Source of the DNA: Cryobacterium roopkundense
Lineage (GTDB): Bacteria > Actinomycetota > Actinomycetes > Actinomycetales > Microbacteriaceae
NCBI RefSeq assembly: GCF_014200405.1
Contig: NZ_JACHBQ010000001.1
Span: 1,736,001-1,800,000, forward strand
Direction of reading: 5' to 3'
DNA length: 64,000 nt
Part shown: piece after piece, positions 2,296 to 51,885 of the stretch
How the letters are laid out: the number at the start of each line of letters is the position of its first letter
How positions within the stretch are numbered: position 1 is the stretch's first letter
Translations under genes and position numbers: made by a program
The notes under the pieces: generated by a model
The model's input: only the letters and a program-made list of their open reading frames with translations
What the model was told of the DNA's origin: nothing
Databases searched by the model: none

Positions 2296-4082
2296 GAGCG
2301 TGGGTCAGTAGTACCAAACTTTAAAACGCCGGTCGATTTCCCGGGCTTGGGGTGGTGGTCTGGGAAAATTGCTTATGAGCGATTCTGATGGCCTGTTCCC
2401 CGCGACGGAACTTGAGCACGTTGACGTGGTCGTGGATGACGGCGTTGAGGCTGGCGGTGGCGTGAACAAGCGGTTTCGGGCTTTCGAGCCGAATGCTGTG
2501 ATGTTGGTGCCGCCGGATTTGGGTGAGTGGTTGCCGCAGAATCACCTTTCCCGTTTCATCGCGGACATCGTCGAAACTCAGCTGGATCTGAAGAAGTTCT
2601 ATGCCTCTTACGCGAAGTCGAAGGGGCAGCCGCCGTATGACCCTCGGTTGATGGTCCGGGTGCTCCTTTACGGGTATTGCGTCGGGGTTCGTTCGTCACG
2701 CGAGTTGGAGCGGGTGTGCGTGGACGTGGTCGCGTTTCGCTGGTTGGCGGCGCAGCAGGCACCTGATTTTCGTTCCATCGCCCGGTTCCGCAAGCGTCAT
2801 CTCTCCAGTCTGGGAAACGTGTTCTTGCAGGCATTGGAACTCTGCCGCGCGGCCGGAATGGTCTCACTCGGGCAGGTCGCGTTGGACGGCACGAAGGTGC
2901 GCGCGAATGCGTCCCGGCGCAAGGCGATGAGTTACGCCCGGTTGACGGAGAAGCAGAAGGTCCTCGCCGACGAGGTGTCTGCACTGCTGGCTGACGCGGA
3001 CGCGATCGATGACGCGGAGGATGCTCGTTTCGGAAAGGACAAACGCGGTGATGAGTTGCCGCCGGAGCTCGCGCGGCGGGAGTCACGCCTGGTGAAACTG
3101 GCCGAAGCGCGCGCGGCCTTGGAGGCCGACGCGGCCGTCCGGGCGCGGAAAGAGGCCGAGAAGAAGGCCCGGGACAAGGGCGACGATGACGACATTGCTG
3201 CGCAGAAGGGTGATGATGCGGCGAAGAACGCGGTCGTGAGGCCGAAGGCTCAACGCAACTTCACCGACCCGGATTCACGGATCATGAAGACCGCCGACGG
3301 GTCGTTCCACTACGCCTACAACGCACAGGCCATCGTTGATGCCGACCATCAGATCATCGTCGCGACGACGCTGACGAATATTGGCGTGGATGTTGAACAG
3401 GTCGTGCCGCTGGTCGAGAAACTCCACGCCACGACCGGCGTCCTGCCCCGGCAGGTCCTGGCGGATGCCGGGTATTGTTCCGCAACAAATCTGGACTACG
3501 CGAAGACTGTTGAAGATGGCAGCGACGGCCGGACCGAGTTTTTCATCGCGACCGGCCGGGTCAAGCACGGCGAGCGTGTTCCTGAAGTTCCTCGGGGCCG
3601 GATCCCGGCCAATGCGACGCTGCGGGAACGCATGGCGCGGAAGCTCAAGACGAAGAAGGGCCGCGCGGTTTATGCGCGGCGCAAAGCGATCGTGGAGCCC
3701 GTGTTCGGTCAGATCCACACTCGGCAGGGCAAGTTTGTGTTGCTGCGCGGGTTGGAGCAAGCAGCGCACGAGTGGTATCTGATCGCGGCCTGCCACAACC
3801 TGATGAAGCTGCACACCATGCAAACCAAGGCGCTTCTGGCCACGCCGGCCGCGCTGATAGCTAGCCCGGCAACCTAAAGAGCAGGGCGGAACCGCCCTGA
3901 CGGGCCGCGGCAACAACCTCGCCTGAACCACCAACGCGACCGTGGCCCTCTTTTCAATCGGCACAACCACAATCCCTGCGCCACAGGCCTTGATTGCCAG
4001 GCCAGCACCGCCCAACCCATCCCGAGGCTTGGACCCGTATTTCGCGGCACCAACCGTAAATAGGCGTTACTGACTCACGCTC
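2296..4082 (+). mobile_element. Complete IS1182-type insertion sequence
   Basis: The element is bounded by inverted repeats GAGCGTGGGTCAGTA (2296-2310) and TACTGACTCACGCTC (4068-4082), identical except for one base. Both ends abut CTAG (2292-2295 and 4083-4086), consistent with a 4-bp target duplication; since CTAG is its own complement it could also be part of the repeat. Length is about 1.79 kb, with one transposase gene filling it. The intact ends and intact gene suggest recent insertion into already decayed DNA beside the broken sigma-factor gene. Confidence 0.85.
2369..3877 (+). CDS. IS1182 family transposase
   Basis: A 502-residue DDE transposase. The N-terminal domain (FEPNAVMLVPPDLGEWLPQ, then YDPRLMVRVLLYGYCVGVRSSRELE) and RSIARFRKRH are typical of IS1182 transposases, as is ALDGTKVRANASRRKAM, which carries a catalytic Asp. 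A charged Ala/Lys/Glu-rich insertion follows at about residues 190-300. The C-terminal half has DPDSRIMKTADGSFHYAYNAQ, VLADAGYCS and the RRKAIVEPVFGQIHTRQG block with the last Glu. The frame is uninterrupted and full length, so the protein is probably active. It is the only gene of the element at 2296-4082. Confidence 0.93.
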   Translation: MLMSDSDGLFPATELEHVDVVVDDGVEAGGGVNKRFRAFEPNAVMLVPPDLGEWLPQNHLSRFIADIVETQLDLKKFYASYAKSKGQPPYDPRLMVRVLLYGYCVGVRSSRELERVCVDVVAFRWLAAQQAPDFRSIARFRKRHLSSLGNVFLQALELCRAAGMVSLGQVALDGTKVRANASRRKAMSYARLTEKQKVLADEVSALLADADAIDDAEDARFGKDKRGDELPPELARRESRLVKLAEARAALEADAAVRARKEAEKKARDKGDDDDIAAQKGDDAAKNAVVRPKAQRNFTDPDSRIMKTADGSFHYAYNAQAIVDADHQIIVATTLTNIGVDVEQVVPLVEKLHATTGVLPRQVLADAGYCSATNLDYAKTVEDGSDGRTEFFIATGRVKHGERVPEVPRGRIPANATLRERMARKLKTKKGRAVYARRKAIVEPVFGQIHTRQGKFVLLRGLEQAAHEWYLIAACHNLMKLHTMQTKALLATPAALIASPAT

Positions 4083-6982: not shown

Positions 6983-7154
6983 ATACGCAATTCCTCTCGA
7001 AAATACTTCAATGGATTTTTCTGTGCCTCGGACATCACAGTTTGAGCCGCGGGCAGTCGAGCGCGGAGCCGAGGGGAAGGCGCCCCAGGCACCAGGCGAT
7101 GCAGGTAAATTTGCGCGGCATCGTCTCTTCTGAAACGGTGGTGTGATTCTGAAA

Positions 7155-8321
7155 TTAAGGACCGACTGGGATGGTGCCGGCGTAATCGGTGCTGTAACCA
7201 GTCACAGGCGTGTGAGGAATGTCTTTCCATACGTCTGGATCCACGTCCTGAACCTCTTTTGTTGCTAGACCGAGCAGGAGTGTTTTCATTGCAAGCGAGT
7301 TCTGCTGAATGCTCTTTCCGCGGGCTTTCTGACCCAGTGAGCCGTCGCTGGTGTTTCCGGAGGTCTCGAAGAAGACCACTGGATTGGAGTGTCCGGTTGG
7401 GTTCATATCCTTGTAGTTCAAGCCCAGCATCATTGCGGACACCACGCCGCCCTTAATATCGATTTCCAGTCCGTTGCCAACCTGGTACCGGTCCATATTT
7501 ATGTACCCGTAACCGCTCAGTTTCTCGTACACGTAGCCGTGCATCTGGCGGGTGAGCACATCGTAGGCGCCGTCCTTGATGGATGGCAGGGTTGGGCCGC
7601 CCGGTGCCAGGGAGATGCCCAAGGATAGGGTGACGTCGTCGCCGGTCGCGTATTCCTTTTTCAGGCCTTGATGGTGAATGTCGATGCCGTATGAAGGCTT
7701 TACCGCCGTCCAATATTCGTAGAACGCAAGCGACTCTTGAGCTTGAAACTTATCCGACACCCAGTCGCGGTTCAGGTCTACGCGCTGCTCGGTGCCGTCG
7801 GCAGCGAGCAGCGGCTCGCCGGCGGCTTGGTCCCAGAGGACGGTCTGGCGGATGTTCATCTCACTTCCATCCGGGTTGTACATGGGTATGAAATGGATGG
7901 TGAAAGCATCGCGAATATTTTGATACTCGGCGGAACCATTTGTGCCCAGGTCCTTTATAAGGCTGAGGATGGATTCAGCACCATAGGGCTCGTTTCCGTG
8001 AATGCGGCCCTGAACCCAAACGTCCTCGGCACCTTGCCCCACGGTCGCCACGTAGAGGTCTCGACCCTGCTCGCTCTTATTGACATATATTCCGGCTTCT
8101 TCGAGAGTGAAGACATCTACCTGATGCCGGCTGGTCTTTTCCAGGCTGAGGAGCTTCTTGATCGTGTCCTCGTAGGTGAGGATACTGGCGGTGTTGGTTT
8201 CGCCTTCGGGTGACGGGAAGTTGGCATTCGCGTAGGCGGGTGCCGTTCCCAAGAGAGGCAGCGCAAGAATTGATGCGGCGCCTATTGCCCAAAGTCTGGT
8301 GGATTGAAGATGTTTTCTCAT
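7155..8321 (-). CDS. Secreted M14 family zinc carboxypeptidase (copy 2)
   Basis: The start at 8321 is preferred over 8345 because GGAGGTA lies 7 nt upstream and the signal peptide then begins correctly (MRKHLQSTRLWAIGAA..., cleavage after AYA). The mature domain has RIHGNEPYGAE (zinc His and Glu), RVDLNRDW, DIHHQGLK (third ligand) and VVFFETSGN with the catalytic Glu. About 388 residues. It is related to but clearly diverged from the neighbouring 343-residue M14 protein. Extracellular peptide or peptidoglycan-peptide cleavage is inferred from the family; the substrate is unknown. Confidence 0.88.
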   Translation of the reverse strand: MRKHLQSTRLWAIGAASILALPLLGTAPAYANANFPSPEGETNTASILTYEDTIKKLLSLEKTSRHQVDVFTLEEAGIYVNKSEQGRDLYVATVGQGAEDVWVQGRIHGNEPYGAESILSLIKDLGTNGSAEYQNIRDAFTIHFIPMYNPDGSEMNIRQTVLWDQAAGEPLLAADGTEQRVDLNRDWVSDKFQAQESLAFYEYWTAVKPSYGIDIHHQGLKKEYATGDDVTLSLGISLAPGGPTLPSIKDGAYDVLTRQMHGYVYEKLSGYGYINMDRYQVGNGLEIDIKGGVVSAMMLGLNYKDMNPTGHSNPVVFFETSGNTSDGSLGQKARGKSIQQNSLAMKTLLLGLATKEVQDVDPDVWKDIPHTPVTGYSTDYAGTIPVGP

Positions 8322-25824: not shown

Positions 25825-27516
25825 GTGTATCAACTTGTTTCTTCCGCAGGTCCTGACGGCGTCATCGTAACGGTCTTGGACCGCTCCGGCACGCCTCGCG
25901 GGCTGCCGCGAACCCTGTCGATGCAGGCCTTTGGACGCTACGTCATCGAGCACGAGCGCGATCGCCCGCGGTGGGTGTGGGAAGACACCGCCCGTTTATA
26001 CCCGAATCTCTTGCGGCACTCGATTCGCGTGCAGAGATGTCATGATCTTCGACTCTGCCATGTCATCCTGCGCAACTCCGCGCTCACGGCGCGAAGCGAG
26101 ATCGGCCGGAGCAAGCCAGGCGCGTGGGACGCCGGCGTGCCCCTCCACCTAGTCGACGCGTCTGGTCCAACACTCTTCGAGCTGATGGACGGCGAATCGC
26201 CTGAGGGAGCTGAGGTGTCGAGTCGCCCGCTCGACGAGTTTCTGCTGCAGTTGCGCGCCGTGTCCGATGCCGACCAGCCTGGACGCATCCGCCTGCTCCT
26301 CGCCGCTGAATCGGCGGGCGCACTGATCGCCGCGGAGATGACCCACGCCGGCCTGCCGTGGCGATCCGACATCCATCACGACCTGCTGACCCGAGAATTG
26401 GGGGACAGGGTTCCACCGGGTGTCCGGCCGGAACGGTTGGAAGCCCTGGCGACAAGAATTCGAGTGGAATTGGGGGACTCCCTCATAAACCCGGACTCAC
26501 CGACCGAGCTGCTCAGGGCGCTCCAGAGGGTGGGCCTGGCCGTGACGTCCACTCGGGCCTGGACGCTCAAGGAAGTGGATCATCCCGTCATCGAGCCGCT
26601 CCTGCTCTACAAGAAGCTGTCCCGGCTGCTCAGCGCCAACGGGTGGGCGTGGATGGAATCATGGATATCGGCGGGCCGGTTTCACCCGGAGTATCTGCCA
26701 GGCGGGGTCGTGACCGGACGATGGGCGGCACGAGGCGGTGGGGCGCTCCAGCTTCCCAAGCAGATCCGTGGGGCCGTTGTCGCCGACCCCGGCTGGAAGC
26801 TCGTCGTGGCCGACGCCGCCCAGCTCGAACCTCGCATCCTGGCCGCGCTGTCCGCGGACCTCAGCATGGCGGCAGCAGGTCGCGGCACGGATCTCTATGC
26901 GGGAATCGTCGCGAGCGGGGTCGTCGAGTCACGGGACCACGCCAAGGTCGCCATGTTGGGAGCCATGTACGGCGCCACGACAGGTGAAAGTGGACGACTC
27001 CTACCACGCCTTGCGAAGGCCTACCCACGCGCGATTGGCCTCACGGAGACAGCCGCACGGGCGGGTGAACGGGGCGATATTGTCACGACGAGGCTGGGCA
27101 GGTCATCCCCGCCGCCCCAGGCGTCCTGGTACGACACGCAGGCGCAGGCCTATGACTCGGCGGCATCGAGTCTCGACGAGAGCCGGGCCCGTGCTCAGGC
27201 CAGGGATTGGGGGCGGTTCACACGCAATTTCGTCGTGCAGGGAACCGCGGCCGAGTGGGCACTCTGCTGGATGGCGGAAATCCGCCGGGAGCTGCAGACC
27301 CTGCACGATGCGGGGGATGGTTTTCGAACCGCACCGCACTTGGTCTTCTTCCTGCACGACGAGGTCATAGTACACACGCCCGAGGGACTCGCCGATCGCG
27401 TTGAATCCATCATCATCGAGGCCGCAGCCACCGCCGGGAGGCTGCTCTTTGGAGATTTCCCCGTGGACTTCATGTTGACCACAGCAACCGTCGACAACTA
27501 TGCGGAGGCAAAATAG
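25825..27516 (+). CDS. Family A DNA polymerase without 5' nuclease
   Basis: A 563-residue polymerase of the second actinobacterial PolA type. Motif A is VVADAAQLEPRILA (Asp330), motif B around HAKVAMLGAMYGAT (Lys374, Tyr382) and motif C FFLHDEVIVHTP (His-Asp-Glu 511-513). The N-terminal 180 residues replace the usual exonucleases. The catalytic acidic residues of a DEDD 3'-5' exonuclease are not apparent (the equivalent strand reads PRWVWEDTARLYP), so proofreading is doubtful although databases often name the family bifunctional. A role in repair synthesis is inferred. GTG start at 25825. Confidence 0.85.
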   Translation: MYQLVSSAGPDGVIVTVLDRSGTPRGLPRTLSMQAFGRYVIEHERDRPRWVWEDTARLYPNLLRHSIRVQRCHDLRLCHVILRNSALTARSEIGRSKPGAWDAGVPLHLVDASGPTLFELMDGESPEGAEVSSRPLDEFLLQLRAVSDADQPGRIRLLLAAESAGALIAAEMTHAGLPWRSDIHHDLLTRELGDRVPPGVRPERLEALATRIRVELGDSLINPDSPTELLRALQRVGLAVTSTRAWTLKEVDHPVIEPLLLYKKLSRLLSANGWAWMESWISAGRFHPEYLPGGVVTGRWAARGGGALQLPKQIRGAVVADPGWKLVVADAAQLEPRILAALSADLSMAAAGRGTDLYAGIVASGVVESRDHAKVAMLGAMYGATTGESGRLLPRLAKAYPRAIGLTETAARAGERGDIVTTRLGRSSPPPQASWYDTQAQAYDSAASSLDESRARAQARDWGRFTRNFVVQGTAAEWALCWMAEIRRELQTLHDAGDGFRTAPHLVFFLHDEVIVHTPEGLADRVESIIIEAAATAGRLLFGDFPVDFMLTTATVDNYAEAK

Positions 27517-42027: not shown

Positions 42028-42062
42028 CCCTCGCCGGGAACGGTAAGCTTAGTATCCGGAAT

Positions 42063-42461
42063 GGGTCGGCAAGACGGTCGCGTCATCTGAGTGTTTCCGG
42101 GATTCGTTTCGGGGACAGCGGGTGCCGAGGAACGTCCGGGCTCCACAGAGCAGGATGGTGGGTAACACCCACCCGGGGTAACCCGCGAGACAGTGCCACA
42201 GAAAGTAGACCGCCACCGGGCCGGGCCTTCGGGTTTGGGTTGGAGGTAAGGGTGAAACGGTGGTGTAAGAGACCACCAGAGGCCAGGGTGACCTGGTCGG
42301 CTAGGTAAACCTCGTCCGGAGCAAGGTCAGACAGAAAGCGCCAAGGCTGCTCGCCGAGCTTTCGGGTAGACCGCTAGAGGGCTGCGGCAACGTAGTCCCA
42401 AGATAGATGGCCGTCCACGGCACTTCGGTGCCGAGACAGAACCCGGCGTATCAGCCGGCCC
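42063..42461 (+). ncRNA. rnpB: RNase P RNA (class A)
   Basis: The 399-nt RNA shows conserved blocks in order: GAGGAACGTCCGGGCTCCA, the ACAGTGCCACAGAAA loop, GGTAAGGGTGAAACGGTGG, and AGACAGAACCCGGCGTATC near the 3' end. The ends GGGTCGGC (42063) and GCCGGCCC (42454-42461) pair to form helix P1 with one G-U. With RnpA it processes the 5' ends of tRNAs. Confidence 0.95.
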
Positions 42462-42486
42462 ATTCCACCCCCTGCATCGGCGCCTC

Positions 42487-43197
42487 TCACGGGCAGCTCC
42501 ACTCGTATAATTTCTCCGGGCGCCCGGCCTGGCCGTATTTTTGGGTGATCGTCGCCTGGTCCTGGGTCACGAGAAATTCCAGGTACCGGCGGGCGCTTAC
42601 CCGAGCCAGGCCCAACTCTCCCGCCACCGCGGCAGCAGACGATCCCGACGTGGCCGCGCGAAGCGCCGCCGTTACGGCGTCCAGAGTGGTGGGAGACAGA
42701 CCCTTGGAGAGCTCCGCTGAGCCTCGTGGCACGTCGGGTTTCGGTCGTGGTCGGAGCATCTCATCGATTCCTGCTTGGTCAAGCGGACGTGCATGCCCGT
42801 TGTGACGCTCTCGCAGGGTCAGCCGGTGCTGCACATACTGATCGAGGCGATCCAGCAGCACGGCCGAGGCGAACGGCTTCACGAGATAGTGCATCACCCC
42901 GCCGGCCATCGCAGCCCGAACCGTCTCCAGCTCGCGCGCGGCCGTGATGGCAATGATGTCCACGGGGTCACCGGGGAGGAGGCGGGCAGCCCGCAACACA
43001 TCGATTCCCGAGATATCGGGCAGGTGTATGTCGAGGAGCACTAGGTCCGGGCGCTTCGTCGAGATGAGCTCCAGACCTTCCGTCCCGGTCGTGGCCACCC
43101 CCACGACATCAAAGCCGCCGTGGGCCAGGAGGAAGCCGGTGTGAATACCGGCGATGTGACGGTCATCGTCGATGATGACCGTGCGGAGCAGTTTCAT
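42487..43197 (-). CDS. Response regulator, CitB/DcuR type
   Basis: A 236-residue regulator. The receiver domain (about 4-120) has acidic IDDD, the phosphorylated Asp56 in LVLLDIHLP, Thr in IAITAAR and Lys in YLVKPFA. The C-terminal part (about 165-225, TLDAVTAALRAATSGSSAAA and SARRYLEFL) is the HTH of the DcuR/CitB branch. Its start overlaps the stop of the sensor gene by 4 bp, so they are coexpressed. It probably controls the divergent tctCBA transporter. Confidence 0.9.
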   Translation of the reverse strand: MKLLRTVIIDDDRHIAGIHTGFLLAHGGFDVVGVATTGTEGLELISTKRPDLVLLDIHLPDISGIDVLRAARLLPGDPVDIIAITAARELETVRAAMAGGVMHYLVKPFASAVLLDRLDQYVQHRLTLRERHNGHARPLDQAGIDEMLRPRPKPDVPRGSAELSKGLSPTTLDAVTAALRAATSGSSAAAVAGELGLARVSARRYLEFLVTQDQATITQKYGQAGRPEKLYEWSCP

Positions 43198-44795
43198 CTG
43201 AGAGAGTTCTCCTGGGTTGGTGGACGGACAGGCAAATCCAGCGCGGAGTCGAATCGTACGGTAAATTCTGCGCCGTTATCGGCGGAATCCCCTGCGCAGG
43301 CGAAACCGTGCCGACGGCGGGCAACGCGGCTCACGAGGGCCAGCCCGAACCCCCGCCCTCCTGGGTGCGTGGCATCCTTCGACGACAACCCCGGTTGAAA
43401 GATTCGCAGACGATCGGCCTCAGCCACGCCGGGGCCGTCGTCGCTGACCGTGAAGTCGATCTGCTCCCGCCACGAGCGAATACTCACATGAACGCGACCC
43501 CCTGAACCCACGGCATCGATTGCATTGTCGACGAGGTTTCCGAGCACAGTCACAGAGTCCGTTGTTCCGTCAGGGGCCAGCACGGAATCGGCGTCGACCA
43601 CCAGGGTGATGCCCTTCTCAGCGCTGATCGTGCTCTTGGCCATCAGCAAGCTCGCCACGTCTGGATCGGTGATGCCGGGAGCGAGTCCTCCCGAGATCAC
43701 CGAGCCGCCGTGACCCGATCGAGAGATGAAGTCTACGGCCTGCTCTATTCGACCCAGTTCGACGAGTCCGGAGATGACGTGCATCTTGTTGGAGAACTCG
43801 TGGGCCTGGGCACGCAGGGCGGCTGTCACATCACGTGCGCCGTCCAGATCGCTAAGAAGTTGATGCAGCTCGGTGCGGTCGCGGAGAATGATGACCCGGC
43901 CCACGAGCCGCCCATCCACCACGGCATCGCTCGCCCGGGCCAGTAAGACGCGCTCGCCCACCAGAATCGTCTCGTCGGCGTCGCTACCGCTCTTCAGAAG
44001 CCGCGCAAGATCCACACCGAGCACAGCAGCGGCCGGTCGTCCCACGACATCGCCTGGGGCCGCCAGGAGCCTGCGGGCTTCGTCGTTGAGCAGGGCAATG
44101 TTTGCCGAGGCATCAATGGCGGCCACCCCTTCGCCGATTCCATGGAGCATGGCGTCCCGGGTTTCCAGGAGGGCCGCGATCTGTTCGGGTTCGAGGCGAT
44201 AGATTCGCCGCCAGGCCAGACGCGACACGTAGATGGCCCCCGCTGTTCCCACCAGCGCGGCACCGACGAGCCACAGGAGCAATTCGGGCAGAACTTCGCG
44301 CAGGTCGGTGGTGAGTGTGGCCTCCAGGATGCCCACAGAAGCCATACCGATAATGGTGCCGCCACCGTCGTAGATGGGAAGTTTGACCCGCCAGGATTCT
44401 CCCAGGGTGCCGGTTTGCGTGCCGACGTAGGGACGACCGGAGAGTGCAATGGAGGGATCGGTGGAGGTGGGTTTGCCGATGAGAGCGGGATTGGGATGCG
44501 AATACCGGATGCCGGCATCATCGGTGACGACAACATAGGTCACGTTGGTGGCTTCAGCAATCAACTCGGCGATCGGCTGGATGGTGGCGCTGGGGTCCGG
44601 GTCGTCGAAGGCCTGCACGATCGCCGGCAGCTCGGCAACGGACTGAGCCACAGTGACCATCCGCGCCTCGTACGCGGAACGGATCTGCTTCTCCTGCACG
44701 CGGACGGCCACCGAACCGGCCACCAGGACGACGATCAGCACGATGAGGAGCTGCAGGAAGAACAACTGCGTTCTCAGCGACATCGACTGGATCAT
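43194..44795 (-). CDS. Sensor histidine kinase, CitA/DcuS type
   Basis: A 533-residue kinase. Membrane helices (about 13-33 and 172-192) flank a periplasmic PAS-like sensor domain (about 40-170, with RYSHPNPALIGK and GRPYVGTQTGTLGESWRV). A cytoplasmic PAS follows (about 220-310). The phosphoacceptor His is in RAQAHEFSNKMHVISGL, and the ATPase has NLVDNAIDA, DDGPGV and GRGFGLALV. CitA/DcuS sensors bind citrate or C4-dicarboxylates. It is divergent from tctCBA, so citrate or another tricarboxylate is a likely signal. Confidence 0.92.
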   Translation of the reverse strand: MIQSMSLRTQLFFLQLLIVLIVVLVAGSVAVRVQEKQIRSAYEARMVTVAQSVAELPAIVQAFDDPDPSATIQPIAELIAEATNVTYVVVTDDAGIRYSHPNPALIGKPTSTDPSIALSGRPYVGTQTGTLGESWRVKLPIYDGGGTIIGMASVGILEATLTTDLREVLPELLLWLVGAALVGTAGAIYVSRLAWRRIYRLEPEQIAALLETRDAMLHGIGEGVAAIDASANIALLNDEARRLLAAPGDVVGRPAAAVLGVDLARLLKSGSDADETILVGERVLLARASDAVVDGRLVGRVIILRDRTELHQLLSDLDGARDVTAALRAQAHEFSNKMHVISGLVELGRIEQAVDFISRSGHGGSVISGGLAPGITDPDVASLLMAKSTISAEKGITLVVDADSVLAPDGTTDSVTVLGNLVDNAIDAVGSGGRVHVSIRSWREQIDFTVSDDGPGVAEADRLRIFQPGLSSKDATHPGGRGFGLALVSRVARRRHGFACAGDSADNGAEFTVRFDSALDLPVRPPTQENSLR

Positions 44796-44972
44796 TTCCC
44801 CATTCTCACACGAGACTCCCAGCCGACCTGTTCGGATGGGCCAGGGACCGGAGACTTCCTGACCGAAAAGACCAGAATGTGCACTATGACCGAATTCTTC
44901 CGTCGACCCGCACGCGTCTCTACGCTGGGATCCTGCGCAAGGATGCGCATCACACCGATGTGAGGAAATACC

Positions 44973-45971
44973 ATGAAGCTCGACCCAATGACGCGTCGCT
45001 CGGCCTATGCCGTCGCTGCCGCGGCATCCGTGATTCTGCTGGCTGCCTGCAGCACGACGGCCGCCGACACCTCGTCGTCTACCGGCATCGACACACTCAA
45101 CATCGTCGTTCCGGCCGACCCGGGCGGTGGGTGGGACCAGACCGGCCGCGCCATCGAGAAGGACCTGCAGACCAACAACCTCGTGACGAGCGCCTCGGTC
45201 GTCAATATCGGCGGGGCCGGCGGCACGAACGGCCTGGCATCGTTGAAGACCGAAAAGGACATGAACACTCTCCTGGTTATGGGTTACGTCATGGTCGGTG
45301 CCGTGGAGACCAACAATTCAGCGAATCGCATCGAAGACACCACACCGATCGCGCGGCTCACAGACGAACCGCTCGTCGTGGTCGTTCCCGAGAACTCGCC
45401 ATACGAAACCATTGACGACCTGCTGGCCGACATCAATGCGCAGGGCCAGGGAGTATCGATCACGGGCGGTTCCGCGGGCGGTGCGGACCACATCTTGGGG
45501 GGAATGATGCTCAAGGCCGAGGGAATCAGTGCCGACAAGCTCAACTACATCCCGTATTCCGGCGGCGGCGAGTCGCTCGCAGCACTGTTGGGCAACAAGG
45601 TCAACGCGGGTATCTCCGGAGTCGGGGAATACGCCGAACAGGTCAAGGCGGGCAAGCTGCGAGCCCTGGCCGTTTCGGGCTCTGATGCCGCCCCGCAGCT
45701 CCCCGACGTCGAGACGTTGACCGACCAGGGCATCGACGTGGTGCTGACCAACTGGCGCGGCGTCGTAGCCCCCGGCACGATTGACGCTGCCCAGGCGCAA
45801 AAGCTCACGAAGTTGATGGAAGACCTGCACGCGAGCGACACCTGGAAGAGCACCCTGTCCGACAACAACTGGGCGGACGCCTTCATGATCGGCGACGAGT
45901 TTGCGACCTTCCTGACCGACGACATCGCCACCGTCAAGGTCACCCTGAAAGACATCGGTCTGCTGCAGTAG
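44973..45971 (+). CDS. tctC: Tripartite tricarboxylate transporter substrate-binding lipoprotein
   Basis: A 332-residue solute receptor of the Bug family. It starts with a lipoprotein signal peptide with lipobox ILLAACS (Cys26). Characteristic pieces are IVVPADPGGGWDQTGRAIEK and GGGESLAALLGNKVNAGISG. It captures tri- or dicarboxylates for TctBA. GAGGAAATACC precedes ATG 44973. It is the first gene of tctCBA and divergent from the sensor kinase gene with a 177-bp control region. Confidence 0.92.
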   Translation: MKLDPMTRRSAYAVAAAASVILLAACSTTAADTSSSTGIDTLNIVVPADPGGGWDQTGRAIEKDLQTNNLVTSASVVNIGGAGGTNGLASLKTEKDMNTLLVMGYVMVGAVETNNSANRIEDTTPIARLTDEPLVVVVPENSPYETIDDLLADINAQGQGVSITGGSAGGADHILGGMMLKAEGISADKLNYIPYSGGGESLAALLGNKVNAGISGVGEYAEQVKAGKLRALAVSGSDAAPQLPDVETLTDQGIDVVLTNWRGVVAPGTIDAAQAQKLTKLMEDLHASDTWKSTLSDNNWADAFMIGDEFATFLTDDIATVKVTLKDIGLLQ

Positions 45972-45973
45972 CC

Positions 45974-46525
45974 ATGAGTTCTCAGCTACCTGAGACGGCC
46001 AGCGGGGGCAGCGCACTCGGCGTCACCCCCGTTCGGCCCGTCGGAGAAATAGTTTTCGCCCTGGTGATTCTCAGTCTGGGCATTGTCGGATTTGTTGCCG
46101 GAGCCGGAATCATGACTCCGTCGTCGGCCAGCGACATCGGGCCACGGGCCTTCCCTTTCCTCGTGTCCGGCCTGCTCGTTGTCATCGGAATCGGCTTGAT
46201 CATTCAACTGCTGCGCGGGCATGTCGGCGTGGCTGACGAGGGTGAAGACGTGGACCCCACTGTGAAGACGGATTGGCTCACGGTGGCGAAGCTGGTTGTC
46301 TGCATCGCTGTGCACACGATTCTGATCGTGCCCCTCGGGTGGCCCGTTGCCGCGGCAGTGCTGTTCTTCGGCGCGGGCTGGTCCCTCGGGGCGAAGCCCT
46401 GGTGGCGCAACGCCCTCATCGCCGTCGCCCTCGCCCTCGTCCTGCAGTACGTGTTCGCCGGACTCCTCGGCGTGTCGTTGCCTGCCGGATTCCTCCTCGA
46501 AGGAGTGAGTTTTCTCAATGGATAA
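45974..46525 (+). CDS. tctB: Tripartite tricarboxylate transporter small subunit
   Basis: A 183-residue membrane protein with four hydrophobic segments ([39 protein letters not shown], a pair around 105-140 and [16 protein letters not shown]). Length and topology fit TctB, and it lies between tctC (2 bp gap) and tctA (8-bp overlap). It forms the membrane complex with TctA. Confidence 0.9.
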
Positions 46526-48071
46526 TTTCATGAACCTGATGGATGGGTTCTCGGTTGCCATGCAGCCCATGTACCTGCTCTACGCGCTCGGCGGCGTCTT
46601 CATCGGAACGGCCATCGGCGTGCTTCCAGGGATCGGGCCGGCCATGACTATCGCTCTCCTGATGCCGATCACGTACAGTCTCGAGCCGACGGCAGCCATC
46701 ATTGTTTTCGCCGGGATCTACTACGGCGGCATGTACGGGGGCTCGACAACATCGATCTTGCTCAACACGCCGGGGGAATCGGCGTCCATCGTAACGGCCC
46801 TCGAAGGCAACAAAATGGCGAAAGCCGGGCGCGGGGCTGCCGCGTTGGCGACCGCCGCGATCGGTTCGTTCGTTGCGGGAACTCTTGCGACGGTTCTGCT
46901 GAGCTTTCTCGCCCCCGTCGTGGCGGAATTCGCGGTTCAAATCGGCCCAGTCGAGTACGTCGCCCTGATGCTCGTGGCGTTCCTCACCGTGGGGGCGCTA
47001 CTCGGGGCATCCGTTCTTCGTGGTCTCGCTTCTCTCGCTCTCGGCCTCTTCATCGCCCTCATCGGAGTCGATGCGCTGACAGGTCAGCAGCGCTACACCT
47101 TCGGTAATCCGTTCCTGGCCGACGGCGTTGACGTTGTGCTCGTGGCCGTGGGCCTCTTTGCCGTCGGAGAGGCGCTGTACGTCGCGTCGCGCCTTCGCCA
47201 CGGCCCGGTGAAGGTGATTCCGGTCAGTGGCGGCTGGACGAAATGGATGAAGAAGGACGACTGGAAACGCTCCTGGAAGCCGTGGATCCGGGGCACCTTC
47301 ATCGGCTTTCCCATCGGCACGATTCCGGCAGGGGGAGCGGATGTCGCCACCTTCCTCTCTTACGCCGCCGAGCGCCGGCTGGCCAAGGGCCCGAACAAGC
47401 GCCAGTTCGGAAAGGGGGCCATCGAGGGCGTGGCCGGGCCCGAATCCGCCAACAATGCGGCCGCGGCCGGAGTCCTCGTTCCGTTGCTCACCCTCGGAAT
47501 TCCCACAACCGCCACGGCCGCCATGATGCTCGTGGCCTTCCAGCGATATCAGATCCAACCCGGGCCACTGCTTTTCGAAACCCAGGGTGCCCTCGTGTGG
47601 ACGCTGATCGCGAGCCTGTACGTGGGCAATCTAATGCTGCTGGTGCTGAACCTGCCGCTCGTGGGGATCTGGGTCAAGATTCTGCAGATCCCGCGACCGT
47701 ACCTGTACGCGGGAATTCTGGTGTTCGCCGGACTCGGGGCCTTTTCGCTGAATTTCACCCCGGTGGATGTCGGCATCCTCTTGGTCGTTGGGCTGCTGGG
47801 CTTCTTCATGCGACGCTACGGGTATCCGATCGCGCCGATGGTGGTGGGTTTGATTCTCGGGCCCATTTTCGAGAACCAGCTTCGGCGTTCTCTGGCCATC
47901 TCGCAGGGGGACCCGACAGCACTCGTTGCTTCTCCCATTGCGGCGACGATCTATGCGTCGCTCATTGTGATCTTCGCGCTGTCATATTGGATGAAACGAC
48001 GCCAGCGCTCCATGGAGAGTGAGACCGCGTCGAGCGACTCGCCTTCTGAGAGAAGTGACGTCGCGGCGTAG
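46518..48071 (+). CDS. tctA: Tripartite tricarboxylate transporter large permease
   Basis: A 517-residue permease with about eleven membrane helices. Family signatures are [40 protein letters not shown] and the duplicated [18 protein letters not shown] with [20 protein letters not shown]. It carries tricarboxylates using an ion gradient. Its start overlaps tctB, indicating translational coupling. It ends 6 bp from the convergent reverse transcriptase gene. Confidence 0.95.
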
Positions 48072-48077
48072 GCGGCA

Positions 48078-49463
48078 TCACCAGTGGATTCGACTGAATT
48101 CGGCGCGAAGTTTTCGACCTCGCGCCGGGTTCAGCGTCTCCAGCCAGGACAGGCGTCCCAGCAGGTGGGCGCGAAACTCCGGATGTGCTCCCCGGTTCTG
48201 GGACTCGGGTCCATGACGCGCACAGTTGTGGATGATCGCCTTGAGCCGGTCGCTCTCCTGGCGTGACATGTTAGTCTGCGTGTTCACGACGATGCCGGTT
48301 ACGGTCTGTTTTACGCTTGCCCGCCGCACTCGGGTCTTGTGGGGGTTCACGAGGTGTCCCTCTGCGGCGACGATGCGCTCTACGCCGCGCGCGAAGGCAT
48401 CCGCTCGTCGGGCCAGCGTCAGGTCGCCGCTAAACGCCAGGTCGTCGGCGTATCGCGTGTAAACGCTTGACGCCGCGGCCGCCCACCCCGCCAACCGTGA
48501 ATCCAGCCTGCGAAGCGCGAGATTCGCGAGCATGGGAGATGACGGTGCACCCTGCGGCAGATGTGTGGCGGCGAGGGCCTGTCGGAGCGCGAAGCGCTCT
48601 TCGGGCCGTCCGCCGGCGGGCATGGCTGCAATGACCCGCGGGGGAGCGGCGGTCGTGCACAAGCCCGTGATTGTGTAGGCGACCGCTTCGGGAAGCCCGG
48701 CGCGGCGGAGTGTGCCGTAGATTCGGGCCCCCGTCACGCGGGCGAAGAACGTGGTGAGGTCCAGGGAGATCACCACGTCCGTACCGGTATGCCGTGACGC
48801 TCCCGTCACAGCGCTTCGGCCCGGCACGAACCCGTGCGCGGCATCGTGCGTGGGTACCAGCCCGATGACACCGGTCAGCAGGGTGCGCTGGGCGGATCGG
48901 AGCCGAGCGCCGGGGATTTCCAGCAGCCGCGGCGTGCGTCCTGCACGAGCGCGCCACTCGTAGCGATAGTGCTGGAGGGCCCCGGACGGGGCATGCCGAT
49001 TCCACTGTCTTGTATCGGCAAACCAGTCAAGGTCGCCGATGGGCAGCTCGAGAAAGTCGGCGAGCTCGGCCAGGGTGCCGAGTGGCGGAACGACGCCGGG
49101 CACGGGTCGTGCCCTCGTCAGCGGAATGCGGTGATGCGCGAGGCCGATCGGAACGCCACTGGCATCCGCGTGGGCGACCGCGGCCCGGAAGACGTCGGCC
49201 GCTGCGATGAACGCTGTCAGTGCACGCGGGGCGTCGTGCGGAGCCTCCCGGTAGACCGTCAGGGTCTCGCGCACGAGCGGACCCAGCCACCGGCGTCGAG
49301 CGCCGAGAACCGCGCTGCCGGCTTCCGATAAGGCGGTGGCGTGCCAGAACTTCGACGACAGAAATGCGAGCGCCAGCGTGCTGGCAACCTCAGAAGACGA
49401 CGGATGCGGTCGACGCGCCAGCACCAGGGCCGCCGGGGTGGCACCTCGCAGCTTCGACGTCAT
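48078..49463 (-). CDS. Retron-type reverse transcriptase with N-terminal extension
   Basis: A 461-residue reverse transcriptase. The N-terminal 150 residues are an extension without recognised motifs. The RT core then reads YRYEWRARAGRTPRLLEIPG, LVPTHDAAHGFVPGRSAVTG, the first catalytic Asp235 in VISLDLTTFF, LPQGAPSSPMLANLALRRL (302-320) and the active site YTRYADDLAFSG (YADD 338-341). VTG at 388-390 (KQTVTGIVVN) is the retron thumb hallmark; the NAxxH position reads GASRH. A long complementary-ended RNA lies 27 bp upstream on the same strand. Together these indicate a retron that makes multicopy single-stranded DNA. No group II intron or maturase domain is present. Confidence 0.9.
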   Translation of the reverse strand: MTSKLRGATPAALVLARRPHPSSSEVASTLALAFLSSKFWHATALSEAGSAVLGARRRWLGPLVRETLTVYREAPHDAPRALTAFIAAADVFRAAVAHADASGVPIGLAHHRIPLTRARPVPGVVPPLGTLAELADFLELPIGDLDWFADTRQWNRHAPSGALQHYRYEWRARAGRTPRLLEIPGARLRSAQRTLLTGVIGLVPTHDAAHGFVPGRSAVTGASRHTGTDVVISLDLTTFFARVTGARIYGTLRRAGLPEAVAYTITGLCTTAAPPRVIAAMPAGGRPEERFALRQALAATHLPQGAPSSPMLANLALRRLDSRLAGWAAAASSVYTRYADDLAFSGDLTLARRADAFARGVERIVAAEGHLVNPHKTRVRRASVKQTVTGIVVNTQTNMSRQESDRLKAIIHNCARHGPESQNRGAHPEFRAHLLGRLSWLETLNPARGRKLRAEFSRIHW

Positions 49464-49489
49464 CGGGCGGCTGCAGGATCGGAAGCGAG

Positions 49490-49658
49490 CATGCGATGGT
49501 TTCCGGGCGACTCGTCACTGGGTGCAGGCGCCGAGCTGCGCGGAGCGCAGAGACGCGCCTGCGGCGCTCGTTCCAGGTCGGTCTTCGTGCCCCGGGGTAA
49601 CCCCGGAGAGGGCAGCACATCACGTGCACTACCCGCCTCGCCCGGAAACCACCGCATG
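49490..49658 (-). ncRNA. Predicted retron msr-msd RNA
   Basis: Read on the minus strand, the 169-nt element starts with a1 (49658-49638) and ends with a2 (49510-49490). The two 21-nt ends are complementary throughout with one G-U pair. Inside are three hairpins: a 10-bp stem at 49634-49610, CCGGGG/CCCCGG at 49606-49592, and a long one at 49562-49524 made of GCAGGCGC/GCGCCTGC enclosing CTGCGC/GCGCAG. This is the classical order of msr stem-loops followed by the msd hairpin inside a1/a2. It lies 27 bp upstream of the reverse transcriptase start and 38 bp after the serine hydrolase gene. The branching G cannot be fixed by eye. Confidence 0.78.
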
Positions 49659-49695
49659 TGGGTCACACTAGCAAGCCAACGGTGCCAGGCGCTGG

Positions 49696-51123
49696 CTACC
49701 GGGCCTGTACGAGGTCGGCGGACACCGTGAACGTCTGCACCCGCGGCGGAAATTCGGGCGTGAGCCGCATCTCAACACGCAGGCGGCCAGCGCGGCCTTG
49801 AACGTGCCACACGAGATGCGTGGGGCTGGTCGAGGTTTCATGGGCGCCGATCAGGAGCGCCGCAGCGTCCGGTTGCCTAGACCCGGGTGCCAGACCGCCG
49901 ACAGCCCGGATGGCCTTCGCTATGTCCTCCTTGCGGCGCTCGTAGCTGTCGTCCAGGGAGATGTTGTCGGCGAATACGACCTGGGCCGTCACGTCATCCC
50001 ACTCTCGGATGAGTCCGGTCAGTGATCGTTGCGCTGATCGGGCGGCGGGTAAGACCGTGGACGCAGGGTGATGTGCCGCCGCGTCGAGCACGTCGAAGGC
50101 CTGCGTGGTCGCCAAGGAAAGCCGAGAATGCGTGGCATTGCCGAAAGCGACAATGCCGTGACCTCCGGCGGCTGACCAGCGCATGTGGGCGGAGAAACCC
50201 GGGTAGCCGCCGGAGTGCGACACCACGGCGCCGTGCGGGTACTGCTCGACGAACAGCCCGAAGCCGTAGCCGGTGGGGTGCCGCGGAAGCGTCGGAACAA
50301 AGCGGTGCAGTTGCTGCATCTCGCGCCGGCTGGCGCGAGAGAGCGGCGAAGGCGGTTCCACGGCGGGAGAAACGTCGAAGGCTTCGGCCAACCAGCAGGC
50401 CCAGCGCGTTACATCGGAGACGGTGCTGAAGAGCCCGCCGATGGGCGAGAAGGCGCCGGGCGAGGAGAACGGGAGCGCACGCCATCCGCCATCGAGCCAG
50501 CGGGTCCCCTCGGCGAGGCCGCCGGCGGCGGCAACCGAGGCGTCGAAGCCCGTGCCCGTCAGGCCCAGTGGAGTGAGAAAGCGTTCCGTGATCAGGTCGC
50601 GGTAGCCACGGCCGGCAGCCTTCTCGATGACACGCCCGAGAAGCGCGAAACCCAGGTTCGAATAGGCGAACCGCGTACCGGGCATCGACTCGATTGTGAC
50701 GCCGCGCCGAAGGACATCGTCAAAGTCCGAATCTCCGAGGGCCTCCTGCCGATCTGCCCAGGGATCGTCGGTCGGCAGCCCGGCAGACATCGTCAGGAGC
50801 ATTCGAATTGTCGGCACCGGGGCATCCGCTCCGGGAAGACGGGCCGAATCGAAGGCCGGCACGAAGCGGGTGATGGGGTCGTCGAGGTTCAGGGCGCCGC
50901 TGTCCCGCAGCAGTAGCACCGCGGCCGCGGTGAAACTCTTCGTACACGATGCAATACGGTAGGCGGTGTCGGGCCCAGGCAGAGCGCCGTCTGGCCCTTC
51001 CCCCGCCGCGCCGAACCGCACAAGGCCCACCCGTTCGAACGTGCCCCAGGCCAGGCTCGGTGCGGATCCGCGTGAGTGGTGCTCGGCGAAAACGGCGTCG
51101 ACGGCATCGAGTGCGGCGGTCAC
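49696..51123 (-). CDS. Serine hydrolase, class C beta-lactamase fold
   Basis: A 475-residue penicillin-binding-like hydrolase. The three active-site motifs are SCTK at 59-62 (nucleophile Ser59), YSN in GTRFAYSNLGFALL, and HSG in VVSHSGGYPGF. About 130 residues follow the catalytic domain as a lipocalin-like C-terminal part. No clear signal peptide, unlike secreted beta-lactamases. It is an esterase or peptidase rather than a proven beta-lactamase. It lies 3 bp from ppgK and just upstream of the retron RNA on the same strand. Confidence 0.85.
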   Translation of the reverse strand: MTAALDAVDAVFAEHHSRGSAPSLAWGTFERVGLVRFGAAGEGPDGALPGPDTAYRIASCTKSFTAAAVLLLRDSGALNLDDPITRFVPAFDSARLPGADAPVPTIRMLLTMSAGLPTDDPWADRQEALGDSDFDDVLRRGVTIESMPGTRFAYSNLGFALLGRVIEKAAGRGYRDLITERFLTPLGLTGTGFDASVAAAGGLAEGTRWLDGGWRALPFSSPGAFSPIGGLFSTVSDVTRWACWLAEAFDVSPAVEPPSPLSRASRREMQQLHRFVPTLPRHPTGYGFGLFVEQYPHGAVVSHSGGYPGFSAHMRWSAAGGHGIVAFGNATHSRLSLATTQAFDVLDAAAHHPASTVLPAARSAQRSLTGLIREWDDVTAQVVFADNISLDDSYERRKEDIAKAIRAVGGLAPGSRQPDAAALLIGAHETSTSPTHLVWHVQGRAGRLRVEMRLTPEFPPRVQTFTVSADLVQAR

Positions 51124-51126
51124 CGT

Positions 51127-51885
51127 CTACTCCCGGAATTTGACCGCGAGCGCAGCCGCACCGAGGATTCCGGCGTTGTTGCGGTGCACGGCGGGAATAA
51201 TGCGCGTCTTCAGGCGAAGTAACGGGAGGAAGTCCTCGTGATGCTTGGACACCCCACCGCCTACGATAAAAAGATCGGGGGAGAACAGCTGCTCGAGGGT
51301 CGCGTAGTACTTCTGCAGGCGTGCGGCCCATTTGTCCCAGCTGAGATTCTCCCGCTCCTTGGCGGAGTATGCGGCCCGGGTCTCGTAGTCTTTCCCGTCG
51401 ATCTGGAGATGACCGAGCTCGGTGTTGGGCACGAGCACGCCATCGTTGAGCAGGGCGGTACCTATTCCCGTGCCGAGAGTCGTGAGGATCACGACACCGG
51501 CAACACCTGTGGCCGCGCCGAATTGGGATTCGGCGTAACCGGCGGCATCCGCGTCATTCACGAAGTGAATGGGAACCTTCAGTGCCTTTTCGAAAAGGGC
51601 CTCGGCTCCCAGACCGATCCATCTGTCAGAAACGTTGGCGGCGCTCATCGTGTGACCATGCTTGATGACGGCCGGAAAACACACGCCGACAGGGAGATTC
51701 TCGGTGTCGGAGGCCACCTGGCTAAGGAGCTGCTGCGTGGTCTCGATGATGTCTTGCGGGCGTCCGCCCTTGGGCGTGGGTAACTTGACCCGATCCGAGA
51801 GGAGGGCACCCGTGGAGAGATCGACGATCGCTCCCTTGATTCCCGTTCCGCCGATGTCAATGCCGATGGCCGTCGTTGCGCTCAT
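51127..51885 (-). CDS. ppgK: Polyphosphate glucokinase
   Basis: A 252-residue ROK-family kinase phosphorylating glucose with polyphosphate or ATP. The phosphate loop is AIGIDIGGTGIKGAIVD; the catalytic Asp lies in HFVNDADAAGYAE, and ILTTLGTGIGTALL and LFIVGGGVSKHHEDFLP complete the actin-like fold. SPPK-like KLPTPKGGRP and the ELGHLQ block are typical of PpgK. GTG/ATG start at 51885, 16 bp upstream of map's stop side. Same strand as map and the serine hydrolase. Confidence 0.93.
   Translation of the reverse strand: MSATTAIGIDIGGTGIKGAIVDLSTGALLSDRVKLPTPKGGRPQDIIETTQQLLSQVASDTENLPVGVCFPAVIKHGHTMSAANVSDRWIGLGAEALFEKALKVPIHFVNDADAAGYAESQFGAATGVAGVVILTTLGTGIGTALLNDGVLVPNTELGHLQIDGKDYETRAAYSAKERENLSWDKWAARLQKYYATLEQLFSPDLFIVGGGVSKHHEDFLPLLRLKTRIIPAVHRNNAGILGAAALAVKFRE

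Follow-up and report, generated by a model that had tools for sequence, protein, structure and literature searches.

Retrons attract study both for defending bacteria against phages and as a source of single-stranded DNA for genome editing. They typically consist of a reverse transcriptase (RT), a non-coding RNA and a toxic effector (PMC12548924; this and the other PMC papers are cited for the available part of their text), and putative actinobacterial retrons appear in a 2019 review (PMC6868368). In this study we describe a locus of Cryobacterium roopkundense lying in a window of 64,000 nucleotides (the whole stretch of DNA analysed; contig NZ_JACHBQ010000001.1, positions 1,736,001 to 1,800,000), in which an RNA element at window positions 49490–49658 stands beside a gene for a retron-type RT, both on the minus strand. 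An earlier note, made from the letters alone, had taken the element for the msr-msd part of a retron, perhaps from an uncharacterised actinobacterial branch. Sequence comparison indicates that the locus is very probably a real bacterial retron of a widespread, untyped branch carrying one strongly conserved RNA. Taken as a whole, it is best explained as a chromosomal retron, in which RT and RNA form the unit, with a predicted multicopy single-stranded DNA (msDNA) as product and most likely a role in anti-phage defence; we put the probability of this explanation at roughly 0.87.

The RNA element and its covariation

The minus-strand RNA 49658–49490 begins with a1 (49638–49658) and finishes with a2 (49490–49510), the latter delimited by fold, pairing and alignment. 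These 21-nt ends pair through 20 Watson-Crick pairs and one G-U, just as first described, and enclose exactly 127 nt, which gives 169 nt from a1 to a2. The predicted fold agrees with the three hairpins reported before: three main ones are placed inside the ends, the third being compound, with a few weak pairs joining the second and the third. Its minimum free energy is −102.3 kcal/mol versus −75.0 ± 4.6 for shuffled sequences (z −5.9; 0 of 200 shuffles as low). As a control for chance stems, 30 windows of equal length generated by a first-order Markov model were scanned on one strand for loops of 80–200 nt; no stem exceeded 14 Watson-Crick pairs, a length reached by five stems in total. The same plus-strand scan of the window returned the end stem of the RNA as an unbroken 14-bp part, because the G-U of the RNA is a C/A mismatch there (the count of 20 belongs to the minus-strand reading), and one other 14-pair stem at 27227–27365.

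Compensatory changes between a1 and a2 had been proposed as a check, and relatives display them. Alignment A2 holds 50 distinct sequences, the window included, anchored on the a1 edge, with a2 sought 115–139 nt from a1. The core is exactly 127 nt in 47 of them, all 171 nt long and gap-free, a count limited by the omission of 11 loci (RT identity at least 50%) which did not fit the search pattern; ten of these match the RNA model R1, some with other lengths, and the remaining one, L028, sits at the edge of its contig. Among 28 representatives less than 85% identical, 13 of the 16 a1/a2 pairs changed on both sides with the pair kept. Pairing was found in 95.1% of their cells and in 38–48% once the partners were slid by 1–4 bases, a comparison biased in favour of the structure, which was derived from the same sequences. 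When a2 was exchanged among sequences, a1/a2 pairing fell to 0.745 (best of 500, 0.8125) from 0.969; in the inner hairpins, exchange of the 3' sides brought pairing from 0.941 down to 0.797 (best 0.833). RNAalifold on A2 gave both-side changes in 30 of 45 pairs.

A covariance model finds the RNA adjoining RTs in five further phyla. In a cross-phylum set of 68 sequences, whose alignment was fitted to the model, 94.7% of the cells pair (shuffles 69.2%) and 43 of 45 pairs have both-side changes (shuffles 32.2); the covariation score reaches 0.613, against 0.175 in shuffles.

The individual parts of the RNA differ in how they vary. The first base after a1, G 49637, is the predicted branching guanosine; it is invariant in all 50 sequences of A2 (G23) and is kept in at least 64 of the 67 cross-phylum rows (column 32). 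By fold and alignment, hairpin 1 (msr, 49610–49634) is paired and variable in sequence. Hairpin 2 (msr, 49590–49608) reads CUCCGGGGNNACCCCGGGG and is conserved across phyla; since it is almost unvarying, it contributes a conservation signal and little covariation. The compound hairpin 3 (49524–49562), supported by fold and alignment, is the predicted core of the reverse-transcribed msd, whose boundary is likewise predicted.

A likely promoter −10 box, TAGTGT (TANNNT), is located at 49665–49670 on the minus strand, 6 nt before the RNA, and would start a transcript near 49658. In 50 of 51 distinct upstream sequences, that of the window among them, TANNNT starts 4–20 nt ahead of the aligned a1 start, compared with 1.25% of 798 control stretches farther upstream at the same loci; the 51 sequences are mutually related, so that the 50 cases are not 50 independent events. 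Judged by comparison, the layout is thus composed of a −10 box, a1/a2 pairing, an invariant G, a near-invariant hairpin and a long 3' hairpin, attached to one RT clade.

A chance palindrome or an overlap with coding sequence could be suspected, as the sequence is GC-rich and the opposite strand carries long frames through the region. The paired changes, the slid and swapped controls and the presence of the RNA in every one of the 35 genomes that have a close RT speak against it and leave it a negligible probability; we consider it ruled out by covariation. Model R1 also gave an antisense match to the window's own RNA (27 bits, E 0.018), which is expected because the RNA is near-palindromic.

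Linkage of the RNA to one clade of reverse transcriptases

We searched 299 genomes of the host family for the RT (threshold E 1e-20) and for the RNA with R1 (threshold E 0.001). The RT was present in 37 and the RNA in 35, in single copy each; all 35 were also RT-bearing, and R1 never found the RNA without the RT in these 299 genomes. RT homologues lacking the complementary ends would have spoken against a retron, and all 35 family genomes with an RT at 51% identity or more hold the RNA, while the two RT genomes without it (G074 and G175) have distant RTs, 29 and 30% identical. As loci of the sampled genomes are among the relatives from which R1 was built, the finds are not independent of the model; its silence in the other 264 genomes is. 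In G153 the RNA and the RT are on separate contigs, for which reason their nearness cannot be judged. In G098 (G098:C1:167969-169287) the RT is split between two overlapping pieces read in different frames, and the RNA is retained upstream; this is either a decaying copy or a sequencing error.

In addition, 79 named genome loci were collected, 77 of them assessable, as L032 and L040 begin at the RT without upstream DNA. The RNA lies upstream of the RT in 72 of the 77, namely 35 closer (L031–L067) and 37 distant loci (L068–L104). None of the distant loci was used in building R1, and 35 of them match it with E values up to 0.0011. The other two, L080 and L098, match R1 weakly (E 0.023 and 0.091); the wider model R2, built from neither of them, detects both (E 2.4e-5 and 1.8e-4). 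With R1 and R2 the RNA was not found at L105–L109 (four cyanobacterial loci and Methylopila). Locus L163 has an RNA match of 49.2 bits (E 4e-7). Six plasmid records, NZ_LR134447.1 and NZ_CP046569.1 among them, carry relatives of 38–45% identity, and all six are called non-mobilizable.

In a tree of 93 RT cores a branch with support 99/89 sets the 62 RNA-bearing rows apart; this branch is present in 100% of 200 bootstrap trees (a bootstrap not fully settled). The other side, 31 rows, includes RTs from the Myxococcota search and cyanobacterial RTs. Beside 28 loci of this sister group R2 gave no RNA match better than E 3.9, and some of them have other candidate stems with spans of about 225–250 nt. 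The RNA follows one RT clade and its relatives keep the stem by paired changes, and the msr-msd reading of the earlier note is supported.

On the window RT, PADLOC gave RT_other (PDLC02949) 574.6 bits and RT_outgroup (PDLC03740) 538.6 bits, with nearly end-to-end alignment, and RT_XIII 277.5 bits, below RT_other. Four tested RNA-bearing relatives (Bythopirellula L074, Amycolatopsis L085, Marimonas L102 and Subtercola L041) are also best with RT_other or RT_outgroup. Six of the 31 rows on the other side were scanned: L168, L179, L105, L164 and L185 are best with RT_XIII and L143 with RT_III-A. Protein searches from two clade members reached 5016 and 7841 homologues, which will include other retron RTs; no named Myxococcus occurs among the 120 matches listed in the second search. 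Nothing in the region matched Rfam at gathering level (two weak matches, E 0.41 and 1.3, stayed below cut-off), and we did not find this RNA described in the literature searched; the 2020 retron classification or the 2024 experimental census may hold a description. To speak of an uncharacterised branch was thus fair, but in a narrower sense: the branch is known already as RT sequence (RT_other/RT_outgroup) and is untyped, its RNA family was not found described, and it is not actinobacterial alone.

The reverse transcriptase and its genome setting

The RT of 461 aa (48078–49463, minus strand), identified by frame, profile and structure searches, follows the RNA on the same strand as claimed, although across 26 bp and not 27 bp. 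Both motifs named before are present. YADD (residues 338–341) is invariant in 55 aligned sequences; VTG (residues 388–390) marks the start of region Y, and several planctomycete, acidobacterial and verrucomicrobial relatives have LAG, IAG or AAG at its position. VTG is present in 47% of retron-like RTs (PMC4244168). Structure comparison delimits the RT core with the C-terminal region Y as residues 131–461 (48081–49073, minus strand), and the best-matching solved structures are retron RTs. A helical N-terminal domain, residues 1–105 (49149–49463, minus strand), is alignable across phyla, and in 64 of 67 same-strand relatives the RNA lies at least 289 nt from the RT core, which leaves room for such a domain.

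Gene order in the window is rnpB, tct-like transporter genes, retron, serine hydrolase and polyphosphate glucokinase. Among 57 Cryobacterium genomes an RT was matched at E 1e-20 in seven. Five of these RTs belong to this clade (66–100% identity, own genome included); the remaining two genomes carry a distant retron-type RT instead (L143 and L144). The stretch 42062–51885, downstream of the RNase P RNA gene, is variable among close relatives, with transporter genes, retron and hydrolase each present or absent and breakpoints at the rnpB end (42466) and near 51135. In G319 and G334 the transporter genes are followed by the kinase, with no space for retron or hydrolase; in G330 and G332 the retron adjoins rnpB, the transporter genes are not there, and G332 also lacks the hydrolase at this place. 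These gene orders imply that the stretch gains and loses genes and that the retron behaves as a unit of RT and RNA. The serine hydrolase (49696–51123), upstream of the RNA, has a beta-lactamase fold and scores far under the cut-offs of named beta-lactamases; it is not part of the retron unit, since it is absent beside the retron in G332.

Proposed function and comparison with known systems

By analogy with known retrons, the RT would bind the RNA, with hairpin 2 and the a1/a2 stem as likely landmarks, and G 49637 would prime through its 2'-OH. Copying would begin at 49511, just 5' of a2, and run toward the 5' side of the RNA through hairpin 3; the primer G after a1 and the start 5' of a2 are modelled on known retrons (PMC6868368). 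As a guess, copying would stop in the linker before hairpin 2; in studied retrons RNase H1 sets where it ends (PMC8989520). The predicted product is an RNA-linked single-stranded DNA of roughly 50–80 nt. We infer msDNA synthesis and function here from such analogies, and anti-phage defence is the most likely role.

Several observations weigh against this explanation. To our knowledge, the typed retrons I–XIII have been described with accessory or fused functions. Here no neighbour family recurs across the loci of the clade (no search for a distant partner was made): the clustered families either stay within related genera or vary in position and strand, which leads us to regard RT and RNA as the whole unit. 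There is no evident defence island among the neighbours examined (transporter, sensor kinase, sugar kinase and serine hydrolase genes), and PADLOC gave no match for the two neighbours scanned. In the RT itself, the NAXXH motif of region X reads GASRH, with N replaced by G, A222 nearly invariant and H225 invariant; this N is conserved in only 62% (PMC4244168) and is substituted in 2 of 16 validated retrons (PMC6868368). A fold search with the N-terminal domain gave no clear match. Three closely related Amycolatopsis have 43–46 nt between RNA and RT core, thus they lack the domain, which is not essential to every member. These loci (L085, L092 and L101) are 90–94% identical over nearly all their length and therefore count as one observation; the domain may be a common, not a universal, part. 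A pentapeptide-repeat-like frame (repeat type judged by eye) lies directly downstream of the RT in L085 at about 7000–7576, and L092 has a 195-aa frame at 7013–7600. Furthermore, the predicted msd folded as DNA is no better than shuffles (z −0.44), and three genomes of a single genus (G045, G116 and G171) have the RNA next to the RT but encoded on the other strand. In L029 (G171) the RNA (2849–3016) is preceded by a TAGGCT box in its own direction. It follows from the inverted arrangement that RNA and RT need not share a transcript.

A separate transcript would also suit an RNA that yields no 2'-5' msDNA and serves the RT otherwise, as a repeat template like that of DRT2 or by regulating RT translation; DRT2 RTs are described as using a neighbouring RNA too, and the msDNA here is a predicted product. 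We think this very unlikely, because a retron-clade RT, complementary ends and a conserved G bordering a1 together make up the msr-msd layout, and a translation-regulating leader would not be expected on the opposite strand.

The lack of a recurrent neighbour bears on two further explanations. The retron might make msDNA with no effector and no defence task, as a vertically kept housekeeping element. Myxobacterial retrons, proposed to be such, are likely vertically inherited and have an extended RT N-terminus (PMC6868368); the almost fixed core length and near-invariant hairpin 2 also look like those of a structural RNA under steady constraint. This we hold to be unlikely, as the element is patchy (present in 5 of the 57 genus genomes and 35 of the 299 family genomes), sits in the variable stretch downstream of rnpB, and its Micrococcaceae RTs branch within those of Microbacteriaceae, as after inter-family transfer. 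Less probable still is a split retron, the RT pairing with an effector encoded elsewhere in the genome. It would reconcile the usual toxic effector with the absence of a recurrent one among the neighbours, but the unit is gained and lost without any shared neighbour.

For the preferred explanation, a defence retron made of RT and RNA, we weakly suggest that the N-terminal helical domain, or a partner encoded elsewhere, takes the effector's place. The domain is the best local candidate, its toxic or sensing role being hypothetical. Tentatively, and at less than even odds, the branch might consist of cross-phylum single-gene retrons without a separate effector, in which this domain or the RT-DNA complex acts instead, together with a rigid RNA of near-constant core.

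The branch is large, yet its RNA has no Rfam match and no effector is visible, which raises the question of how a retron persists without a partner gene. Mapped ends, predicted priming base and promoter make msDNA production directly testable in Actinomycetota and Planctomycetota. If active, so compact an RT-RNA pair might serve editing in GC-rich bacteria.

Among known systems, the window RT is most like the PADLOC models RT_other and RT_outgroup, whose names carry no accessory type. Retron type XIII is the sister group of the RNA-bearing clade on the RT tree and differs in that the tested sister-group RTs (5 of 5) are best with RT_XIII, the window RT with RT_other. The stems on the type XIII side, candidates only, fit the 241-nt transcript of Mx162 (PMC6868368). 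Eco1 (Ec86) is 25% identical over the aligned part; its aligned chain has no counterpart of residues 1–112 of the window RT, and it has a partner effector according to the title of 7v9x. Retron-Bth1 is alike by description: PMC12548924 reports that it, too, has no evident effector and that its RT is not classified within the retron RTs. It differs in lying on a mobile element and in being interrupted by a group II intron. With Mx162 lengths and motifs alone were compared: its 241-nt transcript and 162-nt DNA (PMC6868368) differ from the 169 nt between a1 and a2 here. The myxobacterial Mxa1 (Mx162) and Mxa2 (Mx65), together with Sau1 and Nex2, resemble the present locus in their extended RT N-terminus and in the guanosine within GAGC or CAGC at the a1 edge (PMC6868368).
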